Assembly (NCBI GenBank): GCA_020051695.1
Contig: JAGVQM010000021.1
Location: forward strand, 186,001 to 250,000
Source: Candidatus Zixiibacteriota bacterium
GTDB lineage: Bacteria; Zixibacteria; MSB-5A5; WJJR01; JAJRUJ01
DNA: 64,000 nucleotides
Direction: 5' to 3'
A program made the translations under genes and the position numbers. The notes under the pieces are model-generated. The model did no database searches and was not told where the DNA came from. It saw only the letters and a program-made list of their open reading frames with translations. Shown here one piece after another: positions 9,646 through 12,608 of the stretch (position 1 is the first letter of the stretch; every line of letters begins with the position of its first letter).

Positions 9646-9680
9646 GGAATATATGGGAACAGCCGAAAATAATTTTAAGC

Positions 9681-9710
9681 TTGACATTTCCCGTAATTTC
9701 AAGGATTATA
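9681..9710 (+). promoter_or_regulatory. Promoter: TTGACA-17-GATTAT
   Basis: A perfect TTGACA (9681-9686) is followed after 17 bases by GATTAT (9704-9709, four of six matches to TATAAT). It lies inside what would be an N-terminal extension of the next gene, supporting the downstream start at 9773. Confidence 0.55.
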
Positions 9711-9772
9711 CCGTATTGGTCGAGGGGGCGGCTTCACGGAGGACCGGTTTTAAGGGGAGCCGGTATCAGCAA

Positions 9773-10264
9773 ATGAAAAAGATCGTCATATGTTTTGCCT
9801 TGGGGATGCTGATGGTGCCGGTGGTCCACGCGCAGGTTGACAATGCGGTGCAACAGCCGGGGACCCTGCTGGACAATCCCTACCAGAAATCGTTTTCCTT
9901 GCTGGACCCCTCGCGGTTAACCATTAGCCATGCATATTCATTTGCCTATTTATCGGGAGGAACGACAAGCGGCTCGGTCGGCATGTATCAAAGTGTCATT
10001 CAATATCAGCTGGCCCGGCCATTGACCTTGCGTGTAGGTTTGGCTTACGCTCACAATCCGCTGACGGCGCTTGGCGGAGGGTCGGGGGATTTGGTCCGCG
10101 AAGGATTGTACCCCAGTTTCCAGCTTGAATACCGTCCATCGGCGAATGTGTATCTGGGCATCGGGTATGAACGCGTACCCTACAATCAGTATTACGGACT
10201 ATATAGCGCGCGCTCGGGTTTGATCGGCTACCCTGCCGGCGCCGACTGGTGGCGGACTCGCTGA
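9773..10264 (+). CDS. Small exported protein of unknown function
   Basis: A 163-residue protein with a clear signal peptide (MKKIVICFALGMLMVPVVHAQ). The mature part alternates hydrophobic and polar residues and is rich in Tyr and Gly (YLGIGYERVPYNQYYGLY near the C-terminus). That is compatible with a small outer-membrane beta-barrel or a barrel-associated protein, but I do not recognise a family. An AAGGGGAGC-like sequence lies some 13 bases before the ATG at 9773; a longer frame beginning at 9653 runs through a good promoter and is disfavoured. It precedes the LytR_C and rsfS genes, a housekeeping context. Confidence 0.6.
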   Translation: MKKIVICFALGMLMVPVVHAQVDNAVQQPGTLLDNPYQKSFSLLDPSRLTISHAYSFAYLSGGTTSGSVGMYQSVIQYQLARPLTLRVGLAYAHNPLTALGGGSGDLVREGLYPSFQLEYRPSANVYLGIGYERVPYNQYYGLYSARSGLIGYPAGADWWRTR

Positions 10265-10341: not shown

Positions 10342-10863
10342 ATGAAATCGGGAAATACGAAAAATCCACGCTCGAACGCCCAGCGTAAGGCCTCGGGTTT
10401 CCGCTGGAAATCGCGCTTGCTCGATGCGGCGATCTTAGTCTCGACGGTCGTGGTCGGGGTCTTTGTCTTTTCGGTTGCCGGGCGGTTATCGTCTACGCAC
10501 GCCGAACGAAATGACCGGCCGCCGCGGGTGTTGCGTACGCAAATTCTCAACGGGTGCGGCCAGTCGGGACTGGCCGCGGTGTTCGGCGACCAGCTGGCCG
10601 GCCTGGCGATTGAAGAATTCCGTTTTGATGTTGTCGACCGCGACAACTTCGATAATTTCAAAGTGGAGCGGTCGTTTATTATTGCCTATACATTGCCTCC
10701 GGAGGATGCCTTGCGCCTGGCACGGGCCCTGGGTCTTTCGGAAAACGATGTTTCGATGATGGAGAGAACCGACAACCCCTGGGGACTGGATATCAGCATT
10801 GTCCTCGGCCGCACGGTCCGTCCGGTGACCACACCGGCGGGAACGGCAGTCGATACCCCCTGA
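10342..10863 (+). CDS. LytR_C domain membrane protein
   Basis: A 173-residue protein with a basic N-terminus, one transmembrane helix at about residues 29-49 (AAILVSTVVVGVFVFSVAG) and an exoplasmic LytR_C domain. The hallmark LNGCGQSGLAA is at about residue 69, and DISIVLGR comes near the end. In many bacteria this small domain is fused to LytR-CpsA-Psr enzymes; here, as in several Gram-negative phyla, it stands alone. Its biochemical role is not established. It is followed immediately by rsfS, a recurrent neighbourhood in FCB and related genomes. Confidence 0.8.
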   Translation: MKSGNTKNPRSNAQRKASGFRWKSRLLDAAILVSTVVVGVFVFSVAGRLSSTHAERNDRPPRVLRTQILNGCGQSGLAAVFGDQLAGLAIEEFRFDVVDRDNFDNFKVERSFIIAYTLPPEDALRLARALGLSENDVSMMERTDNPWGLDISIVLGRTVRPVTTPAGTAVDTP

Positions 10864-10894
10864 AGTTGCCGCCTGAGAAATTTAATCCTGCAAA

Positions 10895-10911
10895 AGGAGG
10901 CCTCGACAATT
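10895..10911 (+). promoter_or_regulatory. Strong Shine-Dalgarno in front of an ATT start codon (rsfS)
   Basis: AGGAGG (10895-10900) is followed after 8 bases by ATT (10909-10911), which opens the conserved RsfS N-terminus read as MTPKRLALTVG. The next in-frame near-start, TTG at 10930, is 29 bases from the Shine-Dalgarno and would remove the first conserved residues. Confidence 0.7.
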
Positions 10912-11253
10912 ACACCAAAACGCCTGGCCTTGACGGTCGGAAAGCTCGCCCGCGACAAAAACGCCAACAATATTTGTATTCTGGACCTGCGCAAGCTCTC
11001 GCCGGTTACCGATTATTTCGTCGTTTGTACGGCTGAGGCCGAGGTCCATGTCAAGGCGGTGACGGACCATATCACCGGGAAATTGAAGGAAAAAGGGATT
11101 TCGGTCCGGCATGTCGAAGGCCGGGGCAACACCGGCTGGGTGGTGATCGATTGCTTCACCGTCATTGTGCACGTCTTTCTGGCTCAGGTCCGTGAATTTT
11201 ACAGTCTGGAACGGCTGTGGGGTGACGCGCCGGTAACTGAGATTGCCGATTGA
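10909..11253 (+). CDS. rsfS: Ribosomal silencing factor RsfS
   Basis: A 114-residue RsfS/Iojap protein, which binds ribosomal protein uL14 and blocks 30S-50S joining when nutrients are low. The core is intact: DLRKLSPVTDYFVVCTA, EGRGNTGWVVIDC and VHVFLAQVREFYSLERLWGDA. No ATG, GTG or TTG sits at the expected start. The family N-terminus begins exactly at ATT 10909, placed 8 bases after a perfect AGGAGG, giving TPKRLALTVGKLARDK. The more usual TTG at 10930 gives a 107-residue protein without a ribosome-binding site. I infer ATT initiation; a sequencing error (ATG read as ATT) is the main alternative. Confidence 0.85.
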   Translation: MTPKRLALTVGKLARDKNANNICILDLRKLSPVTDYFVVCTAEAEVHVKAVTDHITGKLKEKGISVRHVEGRGNTGWVVIDCFTVIVHVFLAQVREFYSLERLWGDAPVTEIAD

Positions 11254-11360
11254 TCCTCGCGGCCGCCTGCTCCCCAGGCAGCGGATTGTAGCGCCGGCCC
11301 GCCGATTTTTCGAAGCAAAAAATCATTCATATAGATAGGTATTTGAGGAGGTTGATGTTG

Positions 11361-12608
<1,248 letters not shown>

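Follow-up and report, generated by a model that had tools for sequence, protein, structure and literature searches.

IF3, the product of infC, destabilises 30S complexes formed on codons other than ATG, GTG or TTG (PMC5472188), and infC itself begins with such a codon: ATT in E. coli and ATC in Streptomyces, with autoregulation (PMC5472188), and AUA in S. aureus (PMC13009471). In Streptomyces the gene sigR, with a GTC start, is expressed at a lower level with extra IF3 and at a higher level in infC fidelity mutants (PMC5472188). Conserved AUU and AUA starts behind extended Shine-Dalgarno (SD) sequences reduce yield in S. aureus (PMC13009471), and AUU/CAU is one of the pairs that yield a smaller share of full-length product in vitro as IF3 rises (PMC10158994). 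Very few genes outside infC are known to have conserved AUU or AUA starts. In a reconstruction of 36 genome groups, one switch to AUU was found in 61,358 ancestral AUG starts (PMC5622118).

RsfS binds uL14 and blocks subunit joining (PMC7125091), and in an E. coli delta-rimM strain IF1, IF3 and RsfS jointly oppose premature 70S formation, with IF3 and RsfS both raised (PMC13246957). The E. coli gene has a UUG start and its expression is highest in exponential phase (PMC10917681). Among the matches listed for the open-licence part of PMC, no title or abstract opening gives an AUU or AUA start for rsfS, which given that scope is weak evidence. The locus described here lies in a window of 64,000 nucleotides, the whole stretch of DNA that was analysed, which is part of contig C14 of a 3.53-Mb Candidatus Zixiibacteriota genome (G000). 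Its features are as follows.

10342..10863, + strand: gene with a LytR_C domain, directly 5' of rsfS (PF13399, 30.7 bits, cut-off 22.2)
10892..10900, + strand: SD of rsfS, AAAAGGAGG, by direct reading; the AGGAGG within it is 10895-10900
10909..10911, + strand: predicted rsfS start codon, ATT; the aligned codon is ATT or ATA in 9 of 9 genomes of the order
10909..11253, + strand: rsfS coding sequence, 114 residues including the start, ending in TGA at 11251-11253; identified by TIGR00090, PF02410 and solved RsfS chains
10930..10932, + strand: TTG weighed and then rejected as the rsfS start, the SD being out of reach and the site shifting among relatives
11343..12608 (listed ORF), + strand: rho, directly 3' of rsfS (NF006886, TIGR00767)

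The locus had been read from the sequence alone as an rsfS gene with an ATT start, AGGAGG lying 8 bases before the ATT at 10909. Direct reading of the window bears out this arrangement: AAAAGGAGG is followed by 8 nucleotides and then by ATT, in frame with rsfS. The identity of the ATT-led frame holds as well, with 111.3 bits to the TIGR00090 equivalog model (cut-off 56.9), 107.5 bits to PF02410 (cut-off 21.6) and a match to solved RsfS chains in sequence comparison. From these family matches the product is predicted to bind uL14 and to block subunit joining. rsfS is a single-copy gene in this genome, and the closest RsfS among named relatives is that of a Candidatus Zixiibacteriota MAG (L093), at 73% identity. 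In all 13 genomes in which rsfS has an AUU, AUA or AUC (AUH) start, a LytR_C homologue adjoins the gene upstream and rho adjoins it downstream. For rho itself, an AGGAGG at 11346-11351 points to ATG 11361 (9 nucleotides away) or ATG 11355, either of which is more likely to be the true start than the listed TTG 11343. Just 5' of the LytR_C gene is an ORF of 203 amino acids (9653-10264) that has an internal signal-peptide-like stretch and is without a Pfam match.

The sequence-only reading had also stated that no conventional start fits, and this stands. Going 5' from rsfS, the first in-frame stop is the one that ends the LytR_C gene (TGA, 10861-10863). The frame contains no ATG, GTG or TTG between this stop and 10930, and none lies within reach of the SD. 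The TTG at 10930 begins 29 nucleotides past the SD.

To compare the start among relatives we used nine genomes of the order (G000-G008), from six genera and two families, each with one rsfS; the aligned-codon comparison drew on 55 loci, including the window's own gene (L001). Comparison of the codon in close relatives was a check that the sequence-only reading had proposed, and the aligned codon is never ATG: it is ATT in four of the nine genomes (G000, G001, G005, G007) and ATA in the other five (G002, G003, G004, G006, G008), with no ATG, GTG, TTG or ATC at this position in any of them. All nine carry an SD of AAGGAG or longer, 7-8 nucleotides before the ATT or ATA, with spacing measured from the last base of GGAGG or its equivalent. 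At 3-15 nucleotides past GGAG, all three frames are free of ATG, GTG and TTG in every one of the nine. Since no conventional codon lies within reach of the SD in any of the nine, both a sequencing error and a start at TTG 10930 are very unlikely. Single-base mistakes do occur in MAGs, but ATT or ATA recurs in nine separately assembled genomes; a misread ATG is scarcely credible on this evidence, and we rejected an assembly error at 10909.

A downstream start, at TTG 10930 or its equivalent, would leave the ATT region untranslated. TTG can serve as a start codon and is the usual one for rsfS in this phylum, though placed elsewhere, but the first conventional codon downstream of the ATT or ATA falls at +15, +21 or +36 depending on the genome. 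This shifting place, together with an SD that is out of reach, makes such a codon an unlikely start. The stretch before 10930 also behaves as coding sequence. Residues I1, T2, L6 and A7 are invariant in eight aligned sequences, and the same four are found in G004, which was read separately. Among differing pairs in codons 2-8, synonymous and non-synonymous changes number 60 and 71 in frame against 39 and 123, and 3 and 157, in the other frames. Substitutions at positions 1, 2 and 3 are 0.38, 0.16 and 0.39 per site in codons 2-9, where the third-position excess alone is weak, and 0.19, 0.10 and 0.51 in codons 10-40, an excess typical of coding DNA. The upstream bases of the leader differ at 0.64-0.74 per site and the spacer at 0.51-0.76, with the SD better kept. 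A downstream start thus appears most improbable, and we rejected a conventional start, whether at 10930 or further upstream, on SD reach, the shifting site and the lack of an in-frame codon. Translation of rsfS from the AUU at 10909 is, on the comparison of these sequences, very highly probable. A gene caller that accepts ATG, GTG and TTG alone would cut RsfS short at its N-terminus in this clade, or overlook that end.

The same kind of start is found in family f4, represented by the four genomes sampled in its order (loci L006, L015, L019 and L039). Here a stop precedes the rsfS frame, an ATA lies 8 nucleotides past AGGAG in 4/4 genomes, and this ATA is the only start-like codon backed by an SD; a TTG occurs in one of the four, inside the conserved part only. 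The start lies 18 codons upstream of the start position in the window's order. A tree of 125 RsfS proteins (108 columns, quick method) separates the order from f4, but a topology constrained to unite the two is not rejected (p-AU 0.854), and we therefore do not claim two origins of the AUH start. An AUU, AUA or AUC codon with a well-spaced SD and no conventional start in reach is thus present in 9/9 genomes of the order and 4/4 of f4, and within the order the unusual codon is kept across all six genera and both families. By codon, SD and conservation, rsfS is a putative member of the infC-type class of IF3-discriminated starts.

AUGA is a common start-stop overlap. In 4/4 genomes of f4 the LytR_C stop overlaps the rsfS ATA as AUAG, which suggests an AUA version of this arrangement and possible translational coupling at a non-AUG start. 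This raises the further explanation that RsfS is made mainly by ribosomes arriving through the LytR_C gene, by re-initiation or read-through of the stop, and that the start codon matters little. In the window the two genes share one frame with a single TGA between them, and in G008 LytR_C ends 2 nucleotides before the ATA. Across the order, however, this arrangement is not kept, with LytR_C ending at -45, -45, -37, -47, -51, -33, -47, -33 and -2 (G000 to G008) and lying out of frame with rsfS in four of the nine genomes. Re-initiation may supplement the conserved SD-AUH unit but not replace it, and there is very little chance that it is the main source of RsfS.

To place the ATT start within its own genome, we sampled 457,898 bases of G000 (~13% of the genome), including contig C32 because infC is located there. 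Assigned starts among 349 genes were ATG 286, GTG 40, TTG 13 and none 10, and 344 genes were kept for analysis of SDs 4-11 nucleotides before the codon. An SD match of at least 7 nucleotides before AUH or CTG occurs only at infC (ATC) and rsfS (ATT) among these 344 genes. With SD matches of at least 6 nucleotides before an unusual codon there are five candidates, and only rsfS is without a nearby conventional start. A coarser census, which tallied SD-like matches over the first half of each ORF and showed no enrichment of ATT (26/1157), is too noisy. Generally loose initiation in this genome was rejected as an explanation, given ATG at 286/349 genes and the restriction of the strong-SD AUH/CTG combination to infC and rsfS.

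The sequence-only reading had likened the ATT start to that of infC, and the wider comparison agrees. The infC codon behind the SD is ATC in seven of the nine order genomes, ATT in one and ATA in one, alongside the ATT or ATA of rsfS in all nine. As controls we examined 36 loci for HPF, RbfA, RRF and PcnB homologues of the order, with the HPF matches L300 and L301 left out; three (L302, L322, L327) have no readable frame, and none of the 33 readable loci has a strong-SD AUH or CTG start. IF3 of this genome has the normal two-domain form and scores 173.9 bits against chain 5lmn_X. Four 90-nucleotide rsfS leaders fold no better than shuffled sequences (z 0.04 to 0.57), and an Rfam scan for regulatory RNA gave one match only, far below cut-off; a regulatory RNA structure in the leader was rejected on these two results.

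infC is the closest of the described systems. Like rsfS it has an AUH codon behind a strong SD, belongs to the translation apparatus, encodes a protein that separates ribosomal subunits, and has its AUH start in the same genomes. It differs in encoding IF3 rather than RsfS, and the putative control of rsfS by IF3 would act in trans. Streptomyces sigR resembles rsfS as a stress-related gene with a non-canonical start beyond infC that is under IF3, putatively so for rsfS, but its codon is GTC rather than AUH, it encodes a sigma factor, and its control has been proven by mutants and IF3 dosage (PMC5472188). E. coli pcnB (AUU) and S. aureus ccpN and cvfC1 (AUA/AUU) share yield-lowering starts with rsfS, and the two S. 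aureus genes share its extended, conserved SDs (PMC13009471). They are other genes, however, whose starts are reported to limit dose or to depend on the medium, and no feedback loop is reported for them (PMC13009471). Unlike E. coli pcnB, the pcnB homologues of the window's order have conventional starts where readable. E. coli rsfS (ybeB) is the same gene with a weak start, but its UUG is a conventional minor start outside the IF3-repressed class (PMC10917681).

We favour, with a probability of roughly 0.6, a reading in which the AUU start of rsfS is under IF3 discrimination and RsfS and IF3 belong to one homeostatic loop. Discrimination by IF3 is inferred from the published work on infC, sigR, AUU and AUA codons and RsfS biochemistry; by this analogy control of rsfS by IF3 is likely, and a physiological loop between the two is plausible but speculative. 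The AUU at 10909 would drive rsfS translation through a near-perfect, well-spaced SD, and AUU, AUA and AUC, as near-cognate codons, would be destabilised by IF3 in 30S initiation complexes. When IF3 is plentiful relative to 30S, RsfS synthesis would be low; when IF3 is limiting, it would go up. RsfS would then rise in step with IF3, infC having the same start class in these genomes, and RsfS on uL14 of the 50S and IF3 on the 30S, both with an anti-association role, would be tied into a loop by their shared class of start. RsfS could on this account be a back-up for missing IF3 and not simply a dormancy factor; its dormancy role is in any case uncertain, E. coli rsfS being reported to peak in exponential phase (PMC10917681). 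If IF3 control is true, cells may make RsfS and IF3 according to the level of IF3. An order-wide AUU or AUA start in a gene that shares the anti-association job of IF3 offers a direct test of the link between initiation fidelity and ribosome silencing.

Two observations within these systems count against, or sit awkwardly with, the loop. rsfS uses AUU or AUA while infC mostly uses AUC in the order genomes, and the two signals are therefore not identical. In E. coli delta-rimM, as reported, IF3 and RsfS rise together, which would be unexpected for an rsfS repressed by IF3, although with its UUG start the E. coli gene is no direct test (PMC13246957). That the rsfS leaders show no special RNA structure is a further point against the loop.

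The chief alternative is that RsfS is kept at a fixed low dose without feedback: the AUU would be the true start but would merely set a low constant level, as for E. coli pcnB, and its sensitivity to IF3 would have no regulatory use. This rival draws on the rest of the phylum, where weak rsfS starts are reached by means not known to be IF3-repressed. We found rsfS in 125 of 132 phylum genomes and read the start region in all 125, taking as the start whichever conventional codon lies furthest upstream within a fixed window. Outside the order and f4 this codon is TTG in 95 of 112 genomes, ATG in 9 and GTG in 4, with none in 4, and the SD spacing outside the AUH groups is often 11-15 nucleotides. 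It is 13-15 nucleotides in 44 of 47 f8 genomes with an SD, a count that leaves out four genomes without an SD and two without a conventional codon in the window, and 13-14 nucleotides in 15/15 f19 genomes. The genes sampled from one genome of each family are different: TTG is the assigned start in 9/154 (G073, f8) and 10/129 (G127, f19), and a spacing of at least 12 nucleotides occurs in 2/48 and 2/45 SD-backed genes respectively. The rarity of both features in these samples indicates that sub-optimal initiation is a conserved property specific to the rsfS gene, and suggests that rsfS start strength is itself a conserved trait across the phylum.

A UUG start with long SD spacing fits plain low dosage equally well, which counts against the loop. 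Against a fixed low dose, the AUH groups combine a poor codon with an ideal SD, rather than weakening the start further, and rsfS shares its codon class with infC. We regard the fixed dose as a serious contender but place it well below even odds, behind IF3 discrimination of the AUU start. On the sequences compared, AUH lineages are apparently distinct from the TTG, long-spacing remainder of the phylum in pairing the poorer codon with an ideal SD. A broader proposal, which we hold tentatively and at a little short of even odds, is that IF3 and RsfS of Zixibacteria would form a regulon defined by start codon, in which a shortage of free IF3 raises both, and that selection throughout the phylum would favour sub-optimal rsfS initiation by varied means: UUG with over-long spacing, AUU or AUA with an ideal SD, or the AUAG overlap.

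The TTG starts also offer a possible route to the AUH start. Of the 34 rsfS genes with a TTG at -27, 13 have ATH as codon 3, so that an AUH start could arise through loss of the TTG and a shift of the SD. In f9 a single SD lies 4 nucleotides from a TTG and 10 nucleotides from an ATT or ATC, and this family looks like an in-between on the path from TTG to AUH, if that inferred path is correct. In G026 (L022) the only candidate is an ATC at a spacing of 10 from the SD. The sole fitting ATG in f5 (L003, L007, L023, L050) lies 18-19 nucleotides past the SD and is absent from the sister genome G026. The f8 and f19 TTG loci, which fall among L024-L055 and L201-L270, carry the weak codon and long SD spacing (13-15 nucleotides) that are two named features of the polyamine modulon (PMC10917681).

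Among other named rsfS loci the start is TTG in 28, ATG in 24 and GTG in 14 of 72, with no conventional codon in the window in 6. These 72 come from 80 named loci, eight having been dropped as taken for Zixibacteria, and are not a clean outgroup, as L130, L131, L147, L148 and L154 within them are apparently members of the phylum. In three records from Deltaproteobacteria, Ignavibacteriales and Anaerolinea (L103, L134, L142), rsfS has no ATG, GTG or TTG near the expected start, and the apparent start is a CTG preceded by an SD-like stretch.
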